Shown piece after piece: positions 4,803 through 35,085 of a stretch of DNA of 35,784 nt. The stretch covers positions 26,029-61,812 of the forward strand of contig MGWD01000065.1 in assembly GCA_001800825.1 (NCBI GenBank), written 5' to 3'. Made by a program: the position numbers and the translations under genes. This stretch comes from Euryarchaeota archaeon RBG_19FT_COMBO_69_17. GTDB taxonomy: Archaea > Thermoplasmatota > Thermoplasmata > RBG-16-68-12. Each line of letters begins with the position of its first letter. Position 1 is the stretch's first letter. The notes beneath the pieces were generated by a model. The model ran no database searches. It was not told where the DNA came from and saw only the letters and a program-made list of their open reading frames with translations.

Positions 4803-5207
4803 TCAGACCTCGGCGACGTCGAAGAGCTCCGCCTCCGGGACGCTGAAGTAGAACAGAGACTGCTCGATCTCCCTCTCCTTCGACATCTCCCGGTCCATCC
4901 GCTCCCGCCAGCCGGGCCTCAAGGAGACGCGGAGGCGGCGGCCCTCCTTCTCGAAGGTCACGGCGGGCTCGGGGGACGGCTCCACGAAGATGTTCCCCTT
5001 CCCCATCGTGCAGCCGCTCGAGAACTGGACGCCGTCGACGACGCAGAGCATGGGCGGCTCGGGCTTCGAGCGGACGACGGCGCGGAGGCCCTTGTGGTGC
5101 CCGAACGTCCGTCTCCCGACCGCCCCCATCCTCAGGCCCACGGTCACGTAGACGCCGAGGTGGCCGTGGAAGCGCTGGAGGGCCGCGAGGTCCTCAGGGA
5201 GATCCAT
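4803..5207 (-). CDS. FmdE-domain protein (formylmethanofuran dehydrogenase subunit E-like)
   Basis: About 134 residues matching the core of the FmdE family: an N-terminal FHGHLG motif followed by VTVGLRMG, then CVVDGVQFSSGCTMGKGN, where the Cys and GKGN residues are typical of the fold. FmdE proteins accompany, but are not catalytic parts of, formylmethanofuran dehydrogenase, and stand-alone copies occur widely with unclear roles. The zinc ribbon often found at the C-terminus is absent. I chose the ATG at 5207, which overlaps the upstream DUF202-like gene by 14 bases. A TTG at 5234 would add nine residues of uncharacteristic sequence. No other methanofuran gene is seen, so a link to C1 metabolism is not supported here. 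The gene is probably cotranscribed with the membrane protein upstream. Confidence 0.82.
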   Translation of the reverse strand: MDLPEDLAALQRFHGHLGVYVTVGLRMGAVGRRTFGHHKGLRAVVRSKPEPPMLCVVDGVQFSSGCTMGKGNIFVEPSPEPAVTFEKEGRRLRVSLRPGWRERMDREMSKEREIEQSLFYFSVPEAELFDVAEV

Positions 5208-5604
5208 CGCCCCAGCGAAGGCGGAACGAGTCAATAAGCTTCCGCCGGTCGACCTCCACGAGGCCCCGGAGGCGCTCGTCCGCCTCGGAGACCTTCTTGA
5301 TCTTCGCGTCGAACGCCTGGATCCCGACGACGGCCCGCATGATGAGGTACGAACCCAGGCCGACGAGGGTCGCGCAGAACGCGAGAAGGGGGGCCATGAG
5401 GTACAGGACGGAGAGGATGTCCCAGAACTGGGACGTGGCCACGAGGAACGAGACGACGGACAGCGGCAGGACGAGCACTGCGATCCCTGTCTGAAAGGTC
5501 GAGAGGGACGTGCGCTTGGCCGCGAGGAGGAGCTGGACCTCCTGGAGGCGGAGGGCCTCGTAGGAGTTGTGGAGCACGGGGTCGCTAGATGAATCCGGGG
5601 TCAT
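5194..5604 (-). CDS. Small two-helix membrane protein, DUF202-like
   Basis: A 136-residue protein. A helical N-terminal stretch with LLLAAKRTSLSTFQTGIAV is followed by hydrophobic segments at about 40-57 and 62-88, then a charged cytosolic tail. The RTxLSxxxTGIAV pattern before the first membrane helix is what DUF202/YidH-type proteins show. No function is established for them. The ATG at 5604 lies about 30 bases downstream of an AT-rich box on the minus strand (5635-5642), matching the promoter spacing used elsewhere in the window. Its 3' end overlaps the FmdE gene, implying one transcript. The family link rests on this motif alone. Confidence 0.75.
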   Translation of the reverse strand: MTPDSSSDPVLHNSYEALRLQEVQLLLAAKRTSLSTFQTGIAVLVLPLSVVSFLVATSQFWDILSVLYLMAPLLAFCATLVGLGSYLIMRAVVGIQAFDAKIKKVSEADERLRGLVEVDRRKLIDSFRLRWGDGSP

Positions 5605-5632
5605 CCCATCCCCGCGGGCACATGGGGCGCCG

Positions 5633-5643
5633 CGCTATTTGAG
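5633..5643 (-). promoter_or_regulatory. Putative TATA box for the DUF202-like/FmdE transcript
   Basis: Minus-strand TCAAATAG, centred about 34 bases upstream of the ATG at 5604, in an otherwise GC-rich stretch. The position fits an archaeal box A with a very short or absent leader. Confidence 0.45.
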
Positions 5644-5739
5644 GGTAGCGAGACGGGCCGGGCGGAGTACTTTCGCCGGATTCGCCCACCCCTCCATCGC
5701 CCCTTTTTCCGGCACGCGCACCATGGGCACCATGGGTGA

Positions 5740-5892
5740 GGAGCCCTGCGTCCCGTCGAGACGTCCCTCGCGTCGCCGACCGAGGTCCCCACGGGCCGCG
5801 GGCCCGACGGATGCCCGGAGTGCGGAGCGAGGCTCGTCCACGCGGACGCGTGCGTGCGCTGCGGCGCGTGCGGGTATTCCCCGTGCGGCTGA
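5740..5892 (+). pseudogene. Zinc-ribbon remnant resembling the C-terminal tail of B12-dependent ribonucleotide reductase
   Basis: Read in the frame ending at the TGA at 5890-5892, this stretch encodes a four-Cys-pair zinc ribbon: CPECGARLVHADAC, then VRCGACGYSPCG and stop. Spacing and order resemble the extreme C-terminus of adenosylcobalamin-dependent ribonucleotide reductase (NrdJ), but no reductase body precedes it. The frame opens after a TGA at 5737 and has no ATG, GTG or TTG ahead of the ribbon. The upstream ATGs at 5723 and 5732 lie in another frame, so a -1 shift between about 5740 and 5790 would be needed to join them. A box (CTTTTTCC, 5702-5709) sits about 27 bases before the ATG at 5732, hinting that this was or is a small expressed gene. 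It could be a frameshifted gene, a sequencing error or a relic. Confidence 0.5.
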
Positions 5893-5931
5893 GGCCCTGG
5901 GTTCGACGGCCGTTCCAGTGGAAACGCTGTG

Positions 5932-5983
5932 AGCTAAACTCCCGCGTGGGCGCGGGGTCAGTGGAAGGGGGACTCAAAGGCAT
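5932..5983 (+). promoter_or_regulatory. Putative promoter and leader of mcm
   Basis: The AT-rich CTAAACT at 5934-5940 is the likely box A. The leader then carries a purine-rich GGAAGGGG (5963-5970) and AAAGG (5977-5980) before the ATG at 5984, a possible ribosome binding site. The rest of the 5605-5983 gap holds only the zinc-ribbon frame and the divergent promoter. Confidence 0.4.
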
Positions 5984-8900
5984 ATGACCACCCCGGATCT
6001 TGCGCGGGACGAGCCGAGACGGGGGAGAGGCGTGCTCATCGAGTATCCGCAGGAAGAGCTCATCGCGAAGTGGGAGGACTTCTTCGAGGAGATGGGCTAC
6101 CAGTCGCGGATCATCTCCGTGGCGGACCGGTACCCGGAGGAGCGGACCCTCGAGGTCCCCTTCGACGATCTGAACCGGTTCGACACGGACATGGCCATCT
6201 TCCTCATGCGCCACCCCCTGAACGCCCTGACCGCGGGGGAGGAGGCGGTCCGGAGGCTCGTGCCGCCGGGGGAGGAGGCCCTCCAAATCCACCTGCGGAT
6301 CAAGGGCCTGCCGCGGGACCGGAGGATCCAGATCCGGGACCTGCGGGCGAAGCACCTGGGGCAGTACATCGCGGTCGAGGGGCTCGTACGGAAGTCGACC
6401 GAGGTCAGACCACGGGTCGTGGGTGCCTTGTTCCAGTGCCTGCGCTGCGGGACGATCCTGAAAGAGGAGCAGGACGGGCAGAACTTCCGCGAGCCTCTGG
6501 AGTGCTACGAAGAGCAGGGCGGATGCAAGCGCTCCGCGAGCGCGACGAAGTTCAAGCTCCTCACCGAGACTTCCTTGTACCTCGACACCCAGAAGCTGGA
6601 GATTCAAGAGGCGCCCGAGGGACTCCGAGGAGGCGAAGAGCCCCAGCGCCTGACTGCATACGTGGAGGACGACCTGACCGGTCGCATCACGCCAGGACAA
6701 CGCGTGGTCTTGAACGGCGTCCTGCGCAGCGTGCAAAAAGGCCGACCGGGGGCGAAGTCGACGCTCTTCGACATCTTCACGGACGTGAATTCGGTCGAAA
6801 TGGAGCAGGTCGAATTCGAGGAGATCGAAGTCACCGAGGAGGACGTCCGTCTCATCCGAGTAGCGGGCATGAACCCGGACATCGTGCGGATGATGGTGAA
6901 TTCGATCGCACCATCAATCTACGGATTGCATATGGAGAAAGAGGCCCTCGCCCTTCAGCTCTTCAGCGGCGTGGCCAAGGTCATGCCCGACGGCCGTAGA
7001 ATTCGCGGCGACATTCATATCCTCTTGGTCGGCGACCCGGGTACCGCGAAATCAGAGCTCCTTTCCTACATGAGTCGGCTTTCGCCGCGCGGCATCTACG
7101 CGACGGGCAAGGCGGCAACGGCCGCGGGATTGACGGCCAGTGCCGTTCGGGATGAGTTTGGTGAGGGGCGCTGGACCTTGGAGGCGGGCGCTCTTGTACT
7201 CGCGGACAAAGGCCTCGCCTGTCTTCACCCCGATGCTCGGGTGTTCGTGAATGGCGCTCCGCGTAGAATCGGTGAGATCTTCGATGAGGCGCGCGTGGTC
7301 ACGGCCACATCCCGCGGACGCGCGTTGGAGCTCTCCCCGCTCGGTGTCCGCACGACAAGCCTTGACTTGGAGCTCATGAGTGCCTCGAGGCCTGTCGTCC
7401 CGTTCGTGGCTCGGCGTCGGTATACCGGCCCGATACTCCGGGTGCTCCTTGATTCCGGCTTCGAGTTGCGGCTCACGCCTGACCACTTGGTCCTCGAGGG
7501 AAGCCGCCTCGAATGGATGCGACTCCAGGACATTCCCCCCACGGGCCGACTCGTGGCGGTTCAGAAGCTGCCGAGCGAGAGTGCTCCCGTGTCCCTGCTC
7601 GACATCCTCCCGGATGACTGGATCGTTCAGCTTGCCGCCGACCAGCGGAGAGAGCTCAGGTCCCTATTCAGCCAACGATACTCCAGCCTGGCCGAAGTCA
7701 ATCGCGCGTATGGACTCCGGCGTGAGGCGTTGGCTCGCCGGGATGCAATCCGCGTAGGCCAACTCAGGAGAATCCTCAGGGACTTGGGCCTGTACGAAAC
7801 GTGGAAGGACCGACCCCTCGCATTCGGTCGAACGTCGTCGACCGAACGACTCCGCGTGGCGAGAATCACGCCTGAACTAGGCTATCTCCTGGGCTTCATC
7901 CTTGGAGACGGTCATGTCGCCGTCAGCAAGCGCCGATCATCCATCGGCATCTTCCAGTCGAGAGTCAACCTGAGGCAAATCCAGCAGATACTCCGTCTCA
8001 CCAAGGCGGTCACCTCCCGTCCCTGGGGGATGCATGCTCGCGAAATGAGGAGCGAAATCCGGGGACAAAGGGTTCGGACGTCGTCATACCACATGCATCG
8101 CAGCTCCAACCTACTGGCTTTCGTGTACTCTTGGTTGACGCGGGACGATTGCGCGAACCTCCTCAGGCTCGACGATGAGGCGCTCCGCGGATTCTTGGCG
8201 GGCGTCGTCGACGCCGATGGCTGCATCTCGATCCGACGATCGGCAAAAGCGGGCCGAACCTACGAAAATGCGGACGTCGAGCTGCTGATCTCTGGGAGTC
8301 GGGATCTGAACCTGACCCTCATGCATGCCCTTCGGCGATTCGACATCTTCGCCCGGCTTCGAGAAGGCGCGGCGGTCCACCGGATCCAGATCACCGCGCG
8401 AGGGGATGTGTCACGGCTCTTGGAGTGTATCTCTCCTTACTCCGTGAAATGGAAACGGATACCCCATCGCAGAACGCGAATCACCGGCCAGCACGACGAG
8501 GCACCAGCCGTGGTTGTGCAGAGACTCCTGCGAGAGATACAGCCCCAGCCGTACCGCCTCTTGGATAAGGGACTCTGGAGCACCTATCACGACTACAGGC
8601 GGGGGCTACGGAGGCCGCGAAAGGAGCCGTTGGCGAAGCTGACGCACGCGCTCCGTCGCTGGTGTTCGAAGGAACAGTACGAGCGACTGATCGCACTGAG
8701 TCGCAACGATTATGCTCTCGACAGAATCCGACAGGTCCACGTGGAGGAATATGACGGCTACGTGTACGACCTGCGGGTTCCTACGGGAGAGAGCTTTCTC
8801 TGCGACGGCGTCGTTGTCCACAACTGTATTGATGAGCTGGACAAGATGAATCCGCAAGACCGATCCGCAATCCACGAGGCACTCGAACAGCAGCGGATCA

Positions 8901-9742
8901 GTGTCGCAAAGGCGGGAATCACCGCCGTCCTGCAGGCCCGATGCGCCGTCTTGGCCGCGGCGAATCCGAAGTTCGGCAGGTTCGACGAACACAAGTACAT
9001 CTCGGAACAAATCGACCTCCCACCTACGCTTTTGTCGAGACTAGATGTTATCTTCTCGATGATCGACCGACCGGAGGCGGAAAGGGATCGGCAGCTCGCG
9101 CAGCACATCCTGAAGGGACACCGAGTCGGAGAAATCGTCAAACGTCGCGAGGAGGGGTCCAGTACCCCCGAAATGAAAGAGCTTGAGGAGCCGTACACTC
9201 CCTACTTCAGCCCGGACTTCCTACGCAAATATGTCGCCTACGCGAAGCGGATTTACCCCGTGATGACGGATGAGGCCATGACCGCGATCGAGCGGAAGTA
9301 CCTCGAGATCCGCAAGACGGGGGAAGCCGCCGGGTCGAGCGTCCCCATTACCCCGCGACAGCTCGAGGCCATTATCCGCCTTTCCGAAGCGAGCGCGCGC
9401 CTGCGCTTGAGCAACGAAGTCACCGTCGATGACGCAGACCGCGCCGTCCGGATCGTCGAGTACTGGATGGGCAAGGTCGCTGGAGAGGAGGGGCGGTTCG
9501 ACATCGACATCATCCAAACGGGGATCAGCCAGTCCCAGCGCGAACAGATCATCTCCCTGCGGGACATCATCAGCGAGCTCGCCGGACCGGAGGGCGTCGC
9601 GGACTATGAGGACATCGTCCGGGTGGCCCAAGACCGCGGGATCCCGCCCGCGAAGGTCGACGCCTGGCTCAAGCGGTGGGCCCAGGAAGGGGAGATCTAC
9701 AGCCCCGTGAAGAACAAGTACAAGCTCGTCGAGCGGTTGTAG
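5984..9742 (+). CDS. mcm: Replicative DNA helicase MCM, interrupted by an intein
   Basis: Hexameric 3'-5' replicative helicase. The precursor is 1252 residues and the spliced protein would be about 717, normal for archaeal MCM. The N-terminal domain has an OB fold with a zinc finger starting at Cys152 and Cys155. The AAA+ domain has Walker A GDPGTAKS (350-357), Walker B split by the intein (KGLA before, CIDELDKM after), and sensor/arginine-finger sequence SRLDVIF. The C-terminus is a winged helix ending KNKYKLVERL. The ATG at 5984 gives a short extra N-terminus; a GTG at codon 17 is an alternative. Codon choice and GC content fall markedly across the intein and the flanking several hundred bases of extein, then recover toward both ends of the gene. 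Confidence 0.97.
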   Translation: MTTPDLARDEPRRGRGVLIEYPQEELIAKWEDFFEEMGYQSRIISVADRYPEERTLEVPFDDLNRFDTDMAIFLMRHPLNALTAGEEAVRRLVPPGEEALQIHLRIKGLPRDRRIQIRDLRAKHLGQYIAVEGLVRKSTEVRPRVVGALFQCLRCGTILKEEQDGQNFREPLECYEEQGGCKRSASATKFKLLTETSLYLDTQKLEIQEAPEGLRGGEEPQRLTAYVEDDLTGRITPGQRVVLNGVLRSVQKGRPGAKSTLFDIFTDVNSVEMEQVEFEEIEVTEEDVRLIRVAGMNPDIVRMMVNSIAPSIYGLHMEKEALALQLFSGVAKVMPDGRRIRGDIHILLVGDPGTAKSELLSYMSRLSPRGIYATGKAATAAGLTASAVRDEFGEGRWTLEAGALVLADKGLACLHPDARVFVNGAPRRIGEIFDEARVVTATSRGRALELSPLGVRTTSLDLELMSASRPVVPFVARRRYTGPILRVLLDSGFELRLTPDHLVLEGSRLEWMRLQDIPPTGRLVAVQKLPSESAPVSLLDILPDDWIVQLAADQRRELRSLFSQRYSSLAEVNRAYGLRREALARRDAIRVGQLRRILRDLGLYETWKDRPLAFGRTSSTERLRVARITPELGYLLGFILGDGHVAVSKRRSSIGIFQSRVNLRQIQQILRLTKAVTSRPWGMHAREMRSEIRGQRVRTSSYHMHRSSNLLAFVYSWLTRDDCANLLRLDDEALRGFLAGVVDADGCISIRRSAKAGRTYENADVELLISGSRDLNLTLMHALRRFDIFARLREGAAVHRIQITARGDVSRLLECISPYSVKWKRIPHRRTRITGQHDEAPAVVVQRLLREIQPQPYRLLDKGLWSTYHDYRRGLRRPRKEPLAKLTHALRRWCSKEQYERLIALSRNDYALDRIRQVHVEEYDGYVYDLRVPTGESFLCDGVVVHNCIDELDKMNPQDRSAIHEALEQQRISVAKAGITAVLQARCAVLAAANPKFGRFDEHKYISEQIDLPPTLLSRLDVIFSMIDRPEAERDRQLAQHILKGHRVGEIVKRREEGSSTPEMKELEEPYTPYFSPDFLRKYVAYAKRIYPVMTDEAMTAIERKYLEIRKTGEAAGSSVPITPRQLEAIIRLSEASARLRLSNEVTVDDADRAVRIVEYWMGKVAGEEGRFDIDIIQTGISQSQREQIISLRDIISELAGPEGVADYEDIVRVAQDRGIPPAKVDAWLKRWAQEGEIYSPVKNKYKLVERL
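7220..8824 (+). mobile_element. LAGLIDADG intein within mcm
   Basis: 535-residue in-frame protein-splicing element, precursor residues 413-947. It starts with Cys (CLHPDARVFVNG, block A) and has block B with TxxH (LTPDHLVLEG, Thr498 and His501). Two LAGLIDADG helices give a homing endonuclease: LLGFILGDG (Asp642) and LAGVVDADG (Asp745). Blocks F and G read YVYDLRVPTGESFLCDGVVVHN, with penultimate His946 and terminal Asn947, followed by Cys948 as the +1 nucleophile. All residues expected for splicing and for double-motif endonuclease activity are present, so both look intact. Insertion is at the Walker B motif, directly before the Cys-Ile-Asp-Glu of the AAA+ site, a highly conserved spot typical of intein targets. 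Confidence 0.96.
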
Positions 9743-9748
9743 GAACGC

Positions 9749-9756
9749 ACTTATCG
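9749..9756 (+). promoter_or_regulatory. Putative TATA box for the DUF424 gene
   Basis: ACTTATCG, centred about 31 bases upstream of the ATG at 9783 and just after the mcm stop. Consistent with a leaderless transcript. Confidence 0.45.
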
Positions 9757-9782
9757 CCCGCGGCTCATCCCAAGGCCAGCCC

Positions 9783-10082
9783 ATGCCGATCCGGATGAAG
9801 GTGTACCGCCAGGGGACGGAGATCCTCGTGGCGGCCGCAGACGCGGACCTCATCGGGAGGACGTTCCGCGAGGGGAAGTTCAAGATCGAGGTAGGCCGGT
9901 TCTACGAAGGGGACGTCGTGAGCGAGGAGGCTTTCCTCGAGCAGCTCGAGGGCGCGACGATCGGCAACTTCGTCGGCCGGGAGACGATCGAGGCCGCGAA
10001 GAAGGGCGGATACGCGAGCGACGAGGGGACCCTGTGGATCGGCGGGGTGCCCCACGCGCAGTACATCCTCGTGGTCGGATGA
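9783..10082 (+). CDS. DUF424 family protein
   Basis: A 99-residue archaeal protein beginning MPIRMKVYRQGTEILVAAAD. Two elements match the DUF424 family, small proteins found almost only in archaea: the early LIGRTFREGKFKIEV followed by FYEGDVVS, and the later ATIGNFVGRETIEAA. Members are commonly found near translation and replication genes, and no biochemical function is established. It is soluble, with no signal peptide or membrane segment. It has its own putative box A and lies 40 bases downstream of mcm. Confidence 0.85.
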   Translation: MPIRMKVYRQGTEILVAAADADLIGRTFREGKFKIEVGRFYEGDVVSEEAFLEQLEGATIGNFVGRETIEAAKKGGYASDEGTLWIGGVPHAQYILVVG

Positions 10083-16443: not shown

Positions 16444-17415
16444 ATGGACGAGACGGCACGCCTCCTCGAGGTCATCCGAGGCCGCAATGCGAAGACCGTG
16501 GGCCTCCAGTTCCCCGTCGGGCTGAGGACGAAGGCGGTCGACCTCGCGCGGGAGATCGAGGAGGCGGCGGGCGTCACGTGCCTCGTGTCCGCGGACCCCT
16601 CCTTCGGGGCGTGTGACGTCCCCGAGATGCCCGTGGACCTCATCGTCCACCTGGGCCATGCGCCCATGCCGCACCTCCGGTACGAACGGGTGTTCTTCTA
16701 CGACCTCCCGGGCCCGGCCTTGGAGTCTCTCGCGTTCGTCGACGCCGCCCTGCCGCTCCTCCCGAAGCGGGTCGGCCTCCTGACGACGACCCAGTTCCGG
16801 GGATGGCTCCCGAAGATCAAAGAGCACCTCGAGTCGAAGGGGCACGAGGTCCGAATCGGGGAGCCCGACCGCCGGGTCGCGTACGCGGGCCAGCTCTTGG
16901 GCTGCGACTACCACACCGCGACGGCCGTCGCGGGCGACGTCGACGGATACCTGTACATCGGCACGGGGGACTTCCACCCCCTCGGGGTCGCGATGCTCGT
17001 CGACAAGCCTGTCGCCATCGCGGACCCGGAGCGGGGGACCGCGCGGACCCTCGCGGATCTCAAGGACCGCGTCGTGCGGCAGCGCCACGCGGCGATCGCC
17101 CGCGCCCACGACGCCCGGACGTTCGGGATCATCGTCTCCCGGAAGACCGGTCAGGCCCGGATGGAGCTCGCACGGGACCTCAAGGGGCTCGCGGAGACGC
17201 ACGGCAAGGCCGCGCAGATTTTCCTGATGGACCTCGTGGCCCCGGAGTTCCTCGAGGGGTACCGCGTGGACGCCTGGGTCAACACGGCGTGCCCGAGGAT
17301 CGCGATCGAGGACGTCCTCCAGTACAAGCGGCCCATGCTGACGCCCCAGGAGTTCGAGATCGTCCTCGGGCAGCGGGCCTGGGAGGACTACGTCTTCGAC
17401 GAGATCCGGGCGTGA
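16444..17415 (+). CDS. dph2: Diphthamide synthase Dph2 (2-(3-amino-3-carboxypropyl)histidine synthase)
   Basis: A 323-residue non-canonical radical-SAM enzyme that transfers the 3-amino-3-carboxypropyl group of SAM to a His of elongation factor 2, the first step to diphthamide. The three cluster-ligating cysteines, one per domain, are visible at Cys57 (SFGACDV), Cys154 (LGCDYHTA) and Cys283 (NTACPRIAIED). Length is normal for the archaeal homodimeric enzyme. The last 28 bases overlap the convergent membrane-protein gene. Nothing in the sequence looks degraded. Confidence 0.95.
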   Translation: MDETARLLEVIRGRNAKTVGLQFPVGLRTKAVDLAREIEEAAGVTCLVSADPSFGACDVPEMPVDLIVHLGHAPMPHLRYERVFFYDLPGPALESLAFVDAALPLLPKRVGLLTTTQFRGWLPKIKEHLESKGHEVRIGEPDRRVAYAGQLLGCDYHTATAVAGDVDGYLYIGTGDFHPLGVAMLVDKPVAIADPERGTARTLADLKDRVVRQRHAAIARAHDARTFGIIVSRKTGQARMELARDLKGLAETHGKAAQIFLMDLVAPEFLEGYRVDAWVNTACPRIAIEDVLQYKRPMLTPQEFEIVLGQRAWEDYVFDEIRA

Positions 17416-18068
17416 CGCGTCATCCGACGAGCCATGATGCCCGTCGCGGCGGCCATCGCGGCGCCCGCGGCGGCGCCCGCGTAGAACCCGAAGAGGAGCC
17501 CGACGTTCGAGCCGCTGGATGCGGGGCCGGGAGGGACGCTCGCCCAGGCCAGGGTCAGGACCTCCGTGAGCCCGCCGCCGAGGAGGCCCGCGAAGGCCCC
17601 CGCGAGGCCTCCGGCGAGGAGATCGACGGGGACGCGTCCCGGGCCGGGGGACGTCCCTGAGTTCCGGAAGAGACCGACGAAGAGGCCCGCGACGGTCGCG
17701 AAGAGGAGTCCGCCGAGGAGCCCTGCGAGACCGGCGTTCGTGCGGAACGTCCCCTCGAGGGACGTGGCGATGTCCAAGGCGAACCATCCGAGGACCGCCG
17801 CCGCGAGGAGGCCCACGGCGGCCCCGGCGAGCCCTCCGATCGCGGTCCCGCGGAGCCTCGTGAGCGCCGTGCCCGCGATCCCACCGACGACGGACCCCGC
17901 AAGGGCTCCGCCCGCGAACCCATATACGATTCCGTCCGCATAGTAGCCGTCAGGCGTTGCCACGCTTGCACGCCCGATCGCGCCGACGAAGAGGCCCGCG
18001 AGCCCTCCGAGGAGGGCCCCGAGGAGGCCACCCACTGGACCGTCCCGCGATGCCGACCGTTCCGCCAT
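17388..18068 (-). CDS. Glycine/alanine-rich polytopic membrane protein, unknown
   Basis: About 226 residues made almost entirely of Gly- and Ala-rich hydrophobic segments such as GGLLGALLGGLAGLFVGAIG, GFAGGALAGSVVGGIAGTAL and LLGGLLFATVAGLFVGLF, probably five or six membrane helices. No catalytic or transport motif is recognised. I chose the ATG at 18068 (MAERSASRDG); a longer frame to 18104 adds a proline-rich stretch. Glycine-zipper packing is suggested by the small-residue spacing. Its 3' end overlaps dph2. Low-complexity composition makes homology calls unreliable. Confidence 0.65.
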   Translation of the reverse strand: MAERSASRDGPVGGLLGALLGGLAGLFVGAIGRASVATPDGYYADGIVYGFAGGALAGSVVGGIAGTALTRLRGTAIGGLAGAAVGLLAAAVLGWFALDIATSLEGTFRTNAGLAGLLGGLLFATVAGLFVGLFRNSGTSPGPGRVPVDLLAGGLAGAFAGLLGGGLTEVLTLAWASVPPGPASSGSNVGLLFGFYAGAAAGAAMAAATGIMARRMTRHARISSKT

Positions 18069-18148
18069 GGGCCCAGGCAGCGGACGGGGGGCGCATAAAG
18101 GCACCGTGCGGCGGGGCGTGCCCTCCGCCTGGCGAATCGCGGCTCGGA

Positions 18149-18394
18149 TTAGGTCGGGAGAGCCCTTCGAAGACCTTCAAGGGACGCCGCTCGGAATCGA
18201 TCGAGCTCTTGAGACATCCGCGCGCAGTAGGCCTCGCACCGCCGGATGGCCTCGGCCCGGGACCTGGGGGCCGCGGAGGGCCCCACGTACTCGTTGACTT
18301 GCACGCGCCGACCGCCCTTCGTCTCGTAGTGCCAGAAGTAGAGGTACGGGCGGCCCCGGACCTCGTGGACGTACACGCCGCAGCCGACCTGCAT
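18149..18394 (-). CDS. Small protein with a GRPYLYFWHYE...EYVGP motif, possibly nucleic-acid binding
   Basis: An 81-residue protein: MQVGCGVYVHEVRGRPYLYF, then a KGGRRVQVNEYVGP turn, then a charged helix (SRAEAIRRCEAYCARMSQELDRF). The pattern of an aromatic strand, a Gly-Gly-basic turn and a strand ending in YxGP resembles a small beta hairpin found at the start of many archaeal and mobile-element proteins that handle DNA. That resemblance is only suggestive and I do not recognise a named family. The ATG at 18394 lies 14 bases from a perfect AT-rich palindrome (18409-18430) that overlaps the expected promoter, so the gene may be tightly regulated, perhaps by its own product. Confidence 0.65.
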   Translation of the reverse strand: MQVGCGVYVHEVRGRPYLYFWHYETKGGRRVQVNEYVGPSAAPRSRAEAIRRCEAYCARMSQELDRFRAASLEGLRRALPT

Positions 18395-18408
18395 GCCTCA
18401 CCCATCGT

Positions 18409-18430
18409 GTTATAGTTATTTAACTATAAC
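18409..18430. promoter_or_regulatory. Perfect AT-rich palindrome, probable operator over the core promoter
   Basis: GTTATAGTTA at 18409-18418, two bases (TT), then TAACTATAAC at 18421-18430: a perfect 10-base inverted repeat, 22 bases overall, with only four G/C bases in a strongly GC-rich region. It spans 15-36 bases upstream of the ATG at 18394, where a leaderless archaeal promoter has its TATA box. Binding of a dimeric regulator there would block TBP. It is 60 bases upstream of queC on the other strand, so it could affect that gene too. Confidence 0.65.
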
Positions 18431-18459
18431 GAGGGGGAGCGCGAACGCACCCGCGGAAG

Positions 18460-18468
18460 GCCTTTTCC
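18460..18468 (+). promoter_or_regulatory. Putative TATA-like box for queC
   Basis: GCCTTTTCC, centred about 26 bases upstream of the queC ATG at 18491. Weak on its own; supported by the common spacing in this window. Confidence 0.3.
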
Positions 18469-18490
18469 CGCGGCCCGCGTTACCCGCCCC

Positions 18491-19198
18491 ATGGCCCCCT
18501 CCGCCGTCGTCCTCCTCTCCGGGGGCATGGACTCCACGACGGCCCTCGCGATGACCCGCGCGCAGGGCGAGGACGTCGTCGCGCTCACGATGGACTACGG
18601 CCAGCGGCACCGGAAGGAGATTGAGGCCGCGAGGAAGATCGCGATGCACTTCCGGGTGAAGGACCACCGGGTCGTGACCCTCGACCTGACCGCGATCGGC
18701 GGGTCCGCCTTGACTGACCGTAGGATCCGGATCCCCGAGCAGCGCCGGCTCGAGGAGATCGGCCAGGCCATCCCCGTGACGTACGTGCCCGCGCGGAACA
18801 CGATCCTCCTCTCGTACGCCCTCGGCCTCGCGGAGGTCACGGGCGCGAACGCCATCGTGATCGCCGCGACGGCCGTCGACTACTCAGGGTACGTGGACTG
18901 CCGCCCCGAGTTCTACCGCGCGTTCCAGGAGGTCGCCCGCCTGGGCACGAAGCGCGGGGTCGAGGGGGACGTCATCGAGATCCGCACGCCGCTCATCGCG
19001 ATGTCGAAGGCGGAGATCGTCCGGAAAGGGGAGGACCTCGGCGTGCCGTGGGCCCTCACCTGGTCCTGCTACAAGGGCGGGGAGAGGGCCTGCGGGGTCT
19101 GCGACTCCTGCCAGCTCCGCCTCAAGGGGTTCCGGGAGGCGGGCGCCCGCGACCCCCTCCCGTACGCGCGCCTCCCGAAGGCCGCGAAACCGGGTTAA
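18491..19198 (+). CDS. queC: 7-cyano-7-deazaguanine (preQ0) synthase QueC
   Basis: A 235-residue ATP-dependent enzyme turning 7-carboxy-7-deazaguanine into preQ0, the precursor of archaeosine in archaeal tRNA. The N-terminal PP-loop is VVLLSGGMDSTTAL. MDYGQRHRKEIEAA, PARNTILLSYALGLAE and the C-terminal zinc site (SCYKGG...CGVCDSCQLR) are all as in the family. It is followed 29 bases later by queE, which makes its substrate, so the two form a pathway unit. The queC stop codon overlaps the box A of queE, suggesting queE also has its own promoter. QueD and the tRNA-modifying enzymes are not in the window. Confidence 0.96.
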   Translation: MAPSAVVLLSGGMDSTTALAMTRAQGEDVVALTMDYGQRHRKEIEAARKIAMHFRVKDHRVVTLDLTAIGGSALTDRRIRIPEQRRLEEIGQAIPVTYVPARNTILLSYALGLAEVTGANAIVIAATAVDYSGYVDCRPEFYRAFQEVARLGTKRGVEGDVIEIRTPLIAMSKAEIVRKGEDLGVPWALTWSCYKGGERACGVCDSCQLRLKGFREAGARDPLPYARLPKAAKPG

Positions 19199-19203
19199 AT
19201 AAT
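19194..19203 (+). promoter_or_regulatory. TATA box for queE
   Basis: GTTAAATAAT overlaps the queC stop and is centred 29 bases before the queE ATG at 19228, supporting that start over an upstream frame extension. Confidence 0.55.
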
Positions 19204-19227
19204 GGGGCCGGCATCTCCGGGACGGCC

Positions 19228-19983
19228 ATGGCGGTCGGGTCCGTCGGAACGGCGAAGCCCGGGGAGACGTTCCTCGTCAGCGAGTGCTACCCGACGATCC
19301 AGGGGGAGAGCTCCCTCGTCGGCACACCGACGATCTTCGTGCGGCTCTACGGCTGCAACCTCCGATGCCGCTGGTGCGACTCCATGCACGCGGTGGAGGG
19401 CGGGGAGTTCACGGAGCGGTCCGTCCGGGACGTGACCATGGAGGTCGTCCGGCTCTCGCAGGGGGAGGGCCCGACCCGGTTCCGCGGGATCCACCACGTG
19501 TGCTGGACGGGCGGGGAGCCCCTCCTCCAAGGGCGGTCCATCGCGCGGGCGATCCGCGAGCTGCCGCCGGACTTCGTCCACTCGATCGAGACAGACGGGG
19601 AGGTCGACCTCGGACCCTTCGACGCGGACGTCGGGTCCGCCCGGGACGAGGGCAGGGTCCGGTACGTCATGGACGTGAAGTGCCCCGGCTCCGGGATGAC
19701 GCCCCGTAGGGCGTTCGAGAACCTCCGGCTCCTCCGCCGGACGGACGAGGTCAAGTTCGTGATCCTCGACCGCGGGGACTACGACTTCGCGAGGCGTGTC
19801 CTCGCCGACCATCCCGTCCCGGCGGGCACGGTCCTCTTCTCCCCCGCGGCCCTCGCCCACCACGTGGCCAAGGGCCTCGACCCCGCCGCCCTCGCGTCGT
19901 GGATCCTCGAGGACCGCCTCGACGTCCGGCTCCAGCCCCAGCTCCACAAGTTCCTCTGGCCCGGGCGCGAGCGGGGGATCTGA
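19228..19983 (+). CDS. queE: 7-carboxy-7-deazaguanine synthase QueE (radical SAM)
   Basis: A 251-residue radical-SAM enzyme converting 6-carboxytetrahydropterin to 7-carboxy-7-deazaguanine. The early SECYPTIQGESSLVGTPTIF is the QueE signature. The cluster motif CX3CX2C is CNLRCRWC at Cys43, Cys47 and Cys50, followed by WTGGEPLLQ for SAM binding. I chose the ATG at 19228. The frame runs back to 19048 but that part is antisense-like filler inside queC, and a clear box A lies between. Functions with the adjacent QueC in archaeosine synthesis. Confidence 0.94.
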   Translation: MAVGSVGTAKPGETFLVSECYPTIQGESSLVGTPTIFVRLYGCNLRCRWCDSMHAVEGGEFTERSVRDVTMEVVRLSQGEGPTRFRGIHHVCWTGGEPLLQGRSIARAIRELPPDFVHSIETDGEVDLGPFDADVGSARDEGRVRYVMDVKCPGSGMTPRRAFENLRLLRRTDEVKFVILDRGDYDFARRVLADHPVPAGTVLFSPAALAHHVAKGLDPAALASWILEDRLDVRLQPQLHKFLWPGRERGI

Positions 19984-31819: not shown

Positions 31820-32929
31820 TCACATGAGGCCGATCGGGCCCAGCTTCTCCGGGAGGTACGTGTCCGTCACGTAGTCGAGACCGTACTTCGCGAGGGCCTG
31901 TTGCTCCGCCTTCTTGTTGATCTGGAGCATCGTGTTGATCTCGTTCCGCCAGAACTCGTCGTTGAACCGGGGGTCGGAGAGCTCCGCGTTCAGCGCGCCG
32001 ACGTCCCGCGGGGTCAGGGCGTCCGTCGGGAGATCGTAGTTCAGGATGTCGCTCGCCGTGATCCCGACGAACTCGGTCGTGGGCGTCGCGAGGAACTCCG
32101 AGATGTGCGCCGTCTTGATGGCCCCGTAGGCGACGGACGCGTGGATCCGGAACGACCACGGATCCCCGTCGGTGAACACGGCGACGGGCCACTTCATCTC
32201 CTCGTTGAGCCGCTTCAGGAGGCGGCGCGTACTCCGGGACGGCTGGCCCTTGAGGTGGACGAGGACACACTTCGCATCCTCGTCGAAGCCGTTCTCCACG
32301 AGGCGGTCGAACATACCGCCGGTCTCGATTGCGAGGACGAACTTCGCGTCGCCGCCGACGAACTTGACCTTCTCCTTCTCCACGTTGTACGGGATCGTGT
32401 AGCCCGCGTCCCCGACGTCGTCCCGGCAGTTGATCCGCCGCCGCTCCCCGTTCCGGGTGATCTCCTCAATCGTGACGTTCCCGATCACGCTCGCCCCGCT
32501 CTCCTCGGGCCGGAGTTTGAAGTCCTCCCGGATGAGCTGGGTGATCACCTCCAGGTCCTCCGCGAGGAGGTTCGACTCGTCCTGGGAGTGGAACTTCGCG
32601 ATGTCCCAGCCCTCCGAGATGTAGTACATCTCCCTCAGGGTCGAGGACTTCGCCTCGTTGATCATGTCCTGGATGAACTCGAGGACGTACATCGTCCGGA
32701 GGAGCATGAGGGCCCCCTTGAGCTTCTTCGCGCTCCGGACGCCCAGGAGGTTCCCATATTTCCAGACGGCGTGCTTGGGATCGAAGCGGATGTTCCCCTT
32801 CGTGCGGAGGGGGATCTTCATCTTGGGGATCTGCCCGCCGTCGAGCTCCTCGTAGATCTCCTCCGCGATCGCGTACAGGGCCTGGACCGCCTTGTTCGAC
32901 GCGGCGGGGCCCGCCTTCTTCCTACTCAT
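31820..32929 (-). CDS. top6A: DNA topoisomerase VI subunit A
   Basis: A 369-residue Spo11-like DNA-cleaving subunit of the type IIB topoisomerase. The winged-helix catalytic motif TLREMYYIS places the active tyrosine at Tyr103. The Toprim domain has the acidic residues in [11 protein letters not shown] and FTDGDPWSF, which bind magnesium. Length is normal. Its ATG at 32929 lies 8 bases inside the end of top6B, so the subunits are translationally coupled. Relaxes supercoils and decatenates DNA by double-strand passage. Confidence 0.97.
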
Positions 32930-34916
32930 CCTCGAGCGCCTCCTCCGTCTCGTCGTAGTCGATCTCGCCCTCTTCCTCCTCCGCGGCCGGAGCGGCCTCC
33001 TCCTCGCCTTCGAACTCGTGGTAGTTGAGCTCCCAGTCCCCGGGGAGGGGCTCCGCCCCGATCACGAGGACGGGGTTGATCCCGCTCACGTAGACCTCGG
33101 ACTCGTCGTACTCGGCCTCGTCGAGCCCGTCGATCGTGAAGGTCACGGAGCCCTTCGCAACGCTGTCGATCCGCTTGAGCTCCCAGGTGATCTTCCCGTC
33201 CTCGCGGACCTCGGAGGGCTTCGGGTCCATCGAGCTCGTGGAGACCCCGCGGGGCAGGAGGACGTGGAGGTTCAGCTTCTTGCCCGCGGACGTGAAGTTG
33301 TGGACGTTGAGGGTCACCGTGTGCCGCTTCGCCTTCTTGTCGTACGCGATGAGCTCGTCGACCCAGACGACGCCCATGATCTTCGTGATCGTCGAATCGA
33401 GGACGGGCACCTTCTTCCCGACGATCTTCGCGGACTTCTCTGCGATCCGGGGGAGGATGAGCTGGACGATGTCGAACTTCTCCTTCGTCTTCGCCCGGTG
33501 GGCCTTCTTCGTGAGGTGGGTCTTGAGCCGCCGGCCGCATTCCTTCAGGGCAAGGTCGAGCTCCGTCATGATCTCGTCGACGGACGCGACGGCCTCCTTC
33601 GCCTCCGAGGTGAAGGGGACCTTCGTCGAGCACATGTGGACGAGGATGATCGCGGGACCGAAGGGGAGGCCCTGCCCGCCCCGCTGCTCCATGCCGTACC
33701 GGCGCCAGTCGACGTTCGCCACGGCCTGCGTGAGGGCGCAACCGCCCGCCTGGTACATGAGGGGGACCCGATTCGCGAACCTGAGGACCTCGACGGGCTG
33801 GTCCGGCGGCAGATCGCCCCCGAAGACGATCCCGACCTCGACCTGGAACGGGTTTCCCGCGTACACGGACGGATCGCGGGTGAGAGGCGGCGCGTAGAAC
33901 TCGGGCCGCAGGTTGCCCAGGACGTTCTTGAGGCCCCTCTTGATGAGCCGCTCGCCGATCGGACTCAGGCAGTCCGTCGGAGGGGCCATGAGTTTAGAAG
34001 ACTGCATCGCCTCGTGGAGGGCCTTCGCCTGCTCGAGGCCGAGGGACTTCGGCTTCATGTCCGGGTCGAGGCTTGCCGCCTCGCAGATCTCCTTCGCAAC
34101 CCGGCTCGAGACCCGGACGAACTCCTCCTCGAGGAAGGTGGAGAGCTTGTAGCTCTTCGTCTCCTTCATCATCTGCATGAGCGTGCCGAGCTCGATTCCG
34201 TGCGGGTGCGGCGGGATCTCCTTCGTCTTCGGCGGGAGCTCCTCCGTCGCCCGCTCGGAGATGATCGTCTCACCGTCGGGCGATTTGTACGTGATCCGGG
34301 CGTGCGGGTTCACGATTGCCGTGGCCTTGAGATACTCCGGGATGGACTGCCGCCCGCCCACATACCGACCTTTGAGAGGGATCTCGACGCGGGTCCCGTG
34401 GACGCGCTCCCAAACGACCCGATCCTCCCGGACCTTGCTCGGCAGGTTCCTCTTCGTGTCGATGATGAGTTCGACCTGGTAGGCGACGTCGTCCTCCTCG
34501 ACCTTGGAGGTGATCTTCGTGGCCTTCCCCGTCGTCACTTGGCCGTACATCACCGCGCCGGAAATCCCAAGTCCTTGCTGCCCGCGGGACTGCCGGCGGC
34601 TGTGGAACCGCGACCCGTAGAGGAGCCGCCCGAAGACGTTTGGCACCTCCCTCTTCACGATGCCGGGGCCGTTGTCCTCGATGATGACCAGGAACTCGTC
34701 CTTGTCGACCTTCTGGACCTCGACGAGAACGTCAGGCAGGATGTCGGCATCGCTCGCGGCATCAAGACTATTGTCGAGGCCCTCTTTCACCGCAGTCAGC
34801 AAGGCCTTCGTGGGGGAGTCGTAGCCGAGGATCTGCTTGTTCCGCTCGAAGAACTCGGAGACGCTGATCTCGCGCTGCTTCTTCGCCAGCTCTTCCGCGA
34901 CGGACGTGGAGGGCAT
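32922..34916 (-). CDS. top6B: DNA topoisomerase VI subunit B
   Basis: A 664-residue GHKL ATPase subunit that gates strand passage. The ATP site shows [20 protein letters not shown] and the Gly-rich [15 protein letters not shown] lid. The transducer domain carries the switch lysine region ([24 protein letters not shown]). Beyond that lies an Ig-like C-terminal domain ([21 protein letters not shown] region), then a very acidic tail ([19 protein letters not shown]). I chose the ATG at 34916 ([18 protein letters not shown]). A frame extension to 34991 would start inside the AT-rich promoter at 34987-34996. First gene of the B-A operon. Confidence 0.96.
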
Positions 34917-34972
34917 AGAATCACGGAGGGCGTCGCAAGGCGTTCGCGGGCGATCCCATCCCTTGGGTCTCG

Positions 34973-34998
34973 CGTATTTGGCCCTCCCCATTTAAGGT
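34973..34998 (-). promoter_or_regulatory. Putative promoter of the topoisomerase VI operon
   Basis: Two AT-rich boxes on the minus strand, CCTTAAATG (34989-34997) and CCAAATACG (34974-34982), lie 60-80 bases upstream of the ATG at 34916. Either would leave a leader of 35-50 bases, longer than most in this window. Confidence 0.35.
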
Positions 34999-35085
34999 TA
35001 GCGGGATGGACTCAATCCGTACGTTGCCAGGGCGTCCGCGTATTTGAACCCGGAGGAGAGGGGTGGGACAAAGTATCCGGCGCCG

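Follow-up and report, generated by a model that had tools for sequence, protein, structure and literature searches.

What might read a perfect AT-rich palindrome that lies just upstream of a small archaeal gene? Within the window, by which we mean the whole 35,784-base stretch of DNA analyzed here, the sequence GTTATAGTTATTTAACTATAAC at positions 18409-18430 (no strand assigned) has the form 10+2+10, GTTATAGTTA TT TAACTATAAC, with both arms fully complementary and only 4 of its 22 bases G or C in surroundings of about 70% GC. It is the sole perfect 10+2+10 palindrome in the window. In 100 triplet-block shuffles of the window, 15 perfect palindromes appeared in total and none had six or fewer G/C, bearing out the flawless AT-rich inverted repeat that a preliminary description of this DNA had singled out. 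The palindrome is centered 25.5 bases upstream of the ATG of a gene for an 81-residue protein (18149-18394, minus strand). Across 111 background upstream regions taken from the genomes analyzed, A+T content is highest at -30 to -25, so the palindrome occupies the place where box A of a leaderless gene is expected, as the same description had held. We propose that its center, TTAAATAA (18416-18423, minus strand; -25 from the ATG), is the box A (TATA element) of the 81-residue gene, and that the 22-bp palindrome is an operator of clade A type, as defined below, lying over the box A of its own gene.

Our analysis suggests that the 81-residue protein is probably a homodimeric, sequence-specific DNA-binding autorepressor that acts on this palindrome and also at other gene boundaries. 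A dimer on 18409-18430 would cover box A of its own promoter and keep TBP and TFB off, resulting in self-repression. Within the window this is the likeliest role, and we call the protein a repressor rather than an activator because the palindrome overlaps box A. Binding, dimerization and repression are all what we infer from sequence. More broadly, the protein appears to belong to a new DNA-binding family whose members each have a specific DNA address at the promoter of their gene, the two changing in concert.

The 81-residue reading frame is evidently a real gene, since its 14 closest relatives, each from one locus in another genome, are 57-71% identical to it. With a family profile built from 58 members, we obtained matches in 28 of 37 genomes in the order. 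Every one of the 22 genomes that share the window's family had them, 2-9 per genome, as did 6 of the other 15. A protein search in 61 related genomes likewise found the protein in 28. When we searched 292 genomes drawn evenly across the phylum, we recovered the window's genome (G000) and two weak matches to different proteins, the N-terminal parts of an archaeal Fic protein (L152, E = 4e-5) and of a DDE transposase (L153, E = 5e-4), so that the family is found convincingly in one archaeal order only. The relatives come from Euryarchaeota metagenome-assembled genomes (the EA_ series and RBG_16_67_27), and PMC9038741 equates the GTDB order RBG-16-68-12 with Angelarchaeales; on these two grounds the order is most likely Ca. 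Angelarchaeales. A viral origin of the family was rejected, with no relatives confirmed in viral contigs and a best PHROG match at E = 0.2.

Sequence databases place the protein in no described family. For the window protein, Pfam gave nothing at E up to 1 and NCBIfam nothing at E up to 10, and no solved relative emerged by sequence, with six PDB chains at E = 0.6-4.9 only. A Pfam scan of the 58 members gave weak, scattered matches, most often to DUF7565 (seven members, best E = 0.0061), the lowest single value being 0.00018 for HSP9_HSP12 in one member. Residues M1, G4, C5, G6, Y17, Y19, W21 and G38 are invariant across these 58 members, and we considered a thiol-switch role for Cys5. We assigned 96 distinct fetched members to clades, a set that leaves out, for example, members in G004, G017, G020, G024 and G031. 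The window's own genome carries four members, one each of clades A, B, D and E; the 81-residue protein is the clade A member.

The neighborhood of the clade A gene is conserved on one side. On its 3' side, dph2 for diphthamide synthesis (16444-17415, plus strand; Pfam PF01866, E = 7.2e-75) recurs in 13 of 17 clade A loci. On the other side, queC (18491-19198, plus strand; Pfam PF06508 QueC, E = 5.5e-75) starts 60 bases past the palindrome edge on the opposite strand. The preliminary description had also placed the palindrome upstream of queC, which is correct in this species and fails as a general layout: queC is the direct divergent neighbor, the two starts lying about 100 bp apart, in 4 of 17 clade A loci (G000, G001, G014 and G016), lies 0.6-2.3 kb away in six, and is absent from the examined stretch in seven, some of them cut by contig ends. 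Because direct adjacency is confined to these four loci, queC may be a second target sharing the operator in this and some other species, and we see no general rule. Three further features of the window were noted in passing: a 238-residue Gly/Ala-rich, apparently hydrophobic reading frame without a Pfam match between dph2 and the 81-residue gene (17388-18104, minus strand); an imperfect GC-rich inverted repeat, CCGCGGAAGGCCTTTTCCCGCGG, spotted by eye between the palindrome and queC (18452-18475); and a fall in GC content from about 0.71-0.74 to 0.60-0.69 at 5001-10000 and 32001-35000, possibly foreign or non-coding DNA.

We searched for palindromes upstream of 98 distinct family members de novo, with no assumed consensus, and found 9-10 of 10 pairs within 80 bp upstream in 70 of them. 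Shuffles of the same upstream sequences reached 9 pairs in 0.27% of cases and 10 pairs never; 487 long open reading frames, 23 of which had 9-10 pairs, made a poor control, as most of these loci had been chosen for carrying a site. Fewer than 9 pairs were found in 28 members, including three of clade A, and 7 or fewer in 14. For clade A itself, a palindrome with 9-10 pairs is centered at -24 to -26 in 14 of 17 members. The preliminary description would have been refuted by relatives that keep the gene and lack the palindrome; within clade A only L013, L014 and L016 have a decayed one, and outside clade A, L149 of clade C and several members of clade D also fall short of 9 pairs.

The palindromes at the genes' own promoters differ among paralogs. 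The half-sites are GTTATAGTTA in clade A, GTTATCGTTA in B, GTTACCCTTA in C, GTTAACCTTA in D, YATACCTCTA in E, nCTACCTCT in F, GTTATCTATA in G, GTTATCCTTA in H and GTTAACCTTG in I; differences between clades change both arms together, and variants confined to single members also occur. The center lies at about -25 in clades A, C, D, G and H, at about -25 or -14 in F, at -12 to -16 in E, at -38 to -51 in B and at -49 in I. Two genomes that belong to a different family within the order have their clade I gene in an array of 4-5 palindromes within about 520 bases (G028 contig C104, 8821-9343; G036 contig C264, 1998-2517), compared with one or two palindromes elsewhere.

We next compared protein and operator sequences in 36 representatives drawn from the 82 members with at least 8 pairs. 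In 35 of the 36, the identity of residue 32 tells which base stands at operator position 8 (Q with T, R with C, A with A), and covariation also links residues 8, 10 and 34 to bases 5-7. Across the dyad, the covarying bases are separated by about 10 bp, or one turn of the helix, a spacing that suits a dimer occupying a single side of the DNA. Distances between proteins correlate with distances between operators (Mantel r = 0.62, a value reached in 0 of 2000 permutations). That correlation proves little alone, since each gene is passed on with its promoter and some correlation is expected even without binding. The weight of the evidence is carried by the sites elsewhere in genomes, the sites at gene 3' ends and the genome-wise presence of sites.

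An AlphaFold2 model, computed from the window protein and ten close relatives (pLDDT 93.5, pTM 0.76), shows a three-stranded sheet (residues 5-12, 15-26 and 29-39) and a long helix (43-78). A Foldseek search with this model gave no match at E ≤ 0.001 in the PDB or a viral library. VIA-align ranked the DNA-recognition region of PI-SceI first (1lwt; Z 7.0, rmsd 3.2 Å, 69 residues aligned), and an integrase arm-type domain (3jtz; Z 3.9, rmsd 2.9 Å, 54 residues aligned) tied with unrelated folds; Z values under 8 are below the specific level and may show only a common arrangement, making the likeness to beta-sheet DNA-binding domains suggestive. The antiparallel register read from the DSSP string places the covarying residues on the same face of the sheet as the conserved aromatic residues, and this is likely the DNA face. 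The homodimer would recognize the palindrome with one three-stranded sheet per half-site, and the long C-terminal helix would hold the dimer together.

The preliminary description had recommended looking for the same site in the rest of the genome, and the pattern does recur. Allowing up to three mismatches, the A-type pattern occurs at 61 places in 37 genomes, B-type sites included, whereas reversing the pattern leaves 2 hits and scrambling the palindrome at equal composition leaves 0; in the window's own genome, the search at this threshold finds only one other A-type and one other B-type site. A/B-type sites are present in each of the 19 genomes that carry a clade A or B gene and in none of the remaining 18, for which no such gene appeared among the members assigned. 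In 13 of the 19, such sites lie away from any family gene, and the 81-residue protein may act at these further copies, at other gene boundaries. With one mismatch allowed, E-type sites appear in 20 of 37 genomes, none outside the window's family of genomes; the window's own genome has an E site with two mismatches. The picture is less tidy for D-type sites, which occur in 25 of 37, among them G001 and G006, which have no clade D gene among their family matches, and G023 and G034, in which no family gene was found; three genomes of the same genus as the latter pair do carry one (of clade I where it was read), and its operator is nearly identical. According to a codon-model gene caller, no site among the 132 fetched lies deeper than 60 bases within a gene. 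A crude caller that this one superseded had put 9 of 92 sites deep in genes, versus 73.7% of random positions, and, in a separate count, 6 of 92 inside.

The same orthologous genes adjoin these sites in several species. In a recount of neighbors by tblastn within 700 bases of a site, with domains assigned by Pfam, D- or C-type sites were next to a KaiC-like ATPase with RNase HII (seven genomes), a MoCF-type molybdopterin gene (five), a DPH6-type diphthamide synthase and Ku (four each), a MutY-like glycosylase (two) and, about 360 bases off, TFB (two). A- or B-type sites adjoin DinB polymerase (six genomes), a DHH phosphoesterase with NUDIX (five), thermosome and aldehyde dehydrogenase (three each); A- or D-type sites lie in the gap that separates a recombinase-domain gene from an RFC-like AAA gene (three); and E-type sites adjoin the tRNA-splicing endonuclease gene endA in nine genomes, all those with fetched E sites, and a 2'-5' RNA ligase-like gene in six. 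At the KaiC-RNase HII boundary the site is of D type in G002, G006, G008 and G011 and of C type in G001, G005 and G009, and at the DHH-NUDIX boundary it is of A type in G007 and G016 and of B type in G002, G005 and G010, which looks like rewiring among paralogs. Clusters of aldehyde dehydrogenase or hexulose-phosphate synthase across operator types were dropped, as the tblastn recount disagreed. The clade B gene adjoins an HTH-CBS gene in L030 (by Pfam), L097 and L106; it also faces an RNase Z-like gene (by Pfam in L051), with a second operator between the convergent ends in several species.

Where the sites lie relative to gene ends brings in a different reading, in which the proteins work at gene boundaries as roadblock terminators or insulators against passing RNA polymerase and control of their own promoters is secondary. 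For E sites with both flanks known, 20 gaps are convergent, 16 tandem and 4 divergent, compared with 9, 56 and 36 among 101 background gaps, an enrichment in convergent gaps (Fisher 2.9e-7) and a depletion in divergent ones (0.002). The E site center lies 20-59 bases past the stop codon for 54 of 56 flanking 3' ends, and distances past particular genes are nearly fixed: 34-40 bases past endA in all nine genomes with fetched E sites, and 22-24 bases past dinB for A-type sites in six genomes. Family genes themselves often have a second operator of their own type at the 3' end, matching at least 12 of 14 outer positions in 34 of 93 genes (2 of 415 for the half-sites of other clades) and at least 11 of 14 in 48 of 93 (6 of 415), so that many are framed by two palindromes about 250-310 bp apart. 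Twenty of those 48 are clade E genes, and in them the 3' copy always runs across the stop codon in the same position. In such genes (for example L019, L021 and L145), half of the operator forms the C-terminal residues and stop codon, and where the codons are CAT ACC TCT ACT TAG, the gene ends His-Thr-Ser-Thr-stop. In the 34 genes, agreement with the clade consensus over the inner three bases of each arm amounts to 5.7 of 6 positions in the promoter copy and 4.5 of 6 in the 3' copy, as expected if box A constrains the promoter copy only.

As the main role of the proteins, boundary function of this kind strikes us as somewhat unlikely, though it is the strongest competitor. It fits the E sites and the second operators, and is opposed by the D sites, which are mostly tandem or divergent (32 and 15, with 3 convergent) and lie 50-89 bases from starts for 35 of 62 flanking 5' ends. 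For A sites, 8 gaps are tandem, 4 divergent and 6 convergent. The window's gene also speaks against it, having an operator at its promoter only; we saw none at its 3' end.

Could some other regulator read the palindromes while the 81-residue proteins do something else? The assignment of binding to these proteins comes from their sequences, which leaves room for such a reader. The half-site type, though, follows the clade of the adjacent small protein, and A/B-type sites are missing where clades A and B are missing; a separate reader is accordingly improbable. Slightly more improbable still is a mobile or REP-like cassette with palindromic ends, whose solitary palindromes would be insertion sites or relics. 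The framing of genes by two palindromes fits a cassette, as do the REP-like places of clade E sites (3' ends, few divergent gaps), a placement that clade D sites do not share. Against it, orthologous neighborhoods are fixed, dph2 being kept at most clade A loci as noted above; orthologous loci are all occupied alike; solitary sites lie beside the same genes across species; and the window protein, at 81 residues, has no transposase domain in Pfam. We rejected the idea that the palindrome is simply a symmetric, bidirectional box A with no dedicated binding protein, to which we give very little credence: it suits a palindrome at box A position between two divergent genes, but clade-specific outer bases, copies away from promoters and less conserved centers at 3' ends require a reader besides TBP. 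Least credible, and likewise rejected, are RNA hairpins rather than DNA sites, which would account for the perfect self-complementarity and the clade E sites at gene 3' ends, but deviations from consensus break pairing (one-sided versus two-sided 48:2 in E and 58:0 in D), Rfam at gathering score has no match at 17300-19300, and a site at -25 of a leaderless gene would stay untranscribed with that gene.

Autorepression by a dimer over box A is thus our preferred reading for the window, and the layout of a regulator with its own operator, put forward in the preliminary description, gains support from its retention across most of clade A, from the paralog-specific palindromes and from the recurrence of sites elsewhere. 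For the family as a whole, pure repression is insufficient, given the second operators at 3' ends, the E sites at gene 3' ends and in convergent gaps, and the A sites past dinB and aldehyde dehydrogenase, which are not promoters. Our leading idea is that the same kind of binding would occur at promoters (D) and at gene ends (E and part of A), where the bound protein may serve as a roadblock or insulator. In its fullest and tentative form, to which we lend perhaps one chance in three, the family would consist of paralogous "punctuation" proteins, each recognizing a 22-bp palindrome of its own through a residue-to-base code on the beta-sheet. Many would bracket their own gene with two copies, and throughout the genome they would mark gene boundaries, as promoter operators (D) or as 3' or convergent roadblocks (E and part of A); from species to species, the site at a particular boundary would pass from one paralog to another.

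Little work has been done on regulation in this order of uncultivated soil archaea; in the available text of the main Angelarchaeales paper (PMC9038741), the word "transcription" occurs once, in the introduction. In titles and opening lines of abstracts of open-access papers on Angelarchaeales, palindrome regulators of Thermoplasmata, archaeal beta-sheet or TATA-blocking autoregulators and roadblock termination between convergent genes, a survey with subscription papers and preprints outside its scope, the family is absent. A family of about 80 residues with a readable protein-DNA code yields testable predictions, such as the base change expected from a change of residue 32, and candidate targets can be named, including Ku, DinB, MutY, TFB, thermosome and the tRNA-splicing endonuclease. 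A further question that arises is whether, in archaea, the ends of transcripts from convergent genes are fixed by sequence-specific proteins lying between them.

How does this candidate system compare with known ones? In bacteria, REP elements and their RAYT genes have palindromes that frame a gene and lie at 3' ends and between convergent genes. Palindromes likewise frame genes of the present family, and clade E sites lie at 3' ends and between convergent genes, but the family lacks a transposase domain, has few copies per genome at stable positions, and matches protein to site by clade. The Fic protein L152 and the transposase L153 share with the family a weak profile match over residues of about 7-68 (GR-Y-Y...GG..Q..Y-G), in a segment that belongs to a larger enzyme rather than to a free 81-residue protein. 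The 3jtz and 1lwt domains share the three-stranded antiparallel sheet with a helix, but are parts of recombinases or homing endonucleases, whereas the 81-residue protein is proposed to be a free-standing dimeric regulator. MetJ and Arc, the ribbon-helix-helix proteins, are small dimeric repressors that read DNA by beta-strands, with one strand and two helices per chain; the 81-residue protein has no Pfam match to that class, and its predicted three-stranded sheet and single helix differ from that layout. Among archaeal autoregulated repressors, the Lrp, TrmB and MarR-like families cover the TATA/BRE region. The 81-residue model lacks their helix-turn-helix, and we found no sequence relation to them, but the proposed arrangement is like theirs: a small protein, a palindromic operator over its own box A, and further targets elsewhere.
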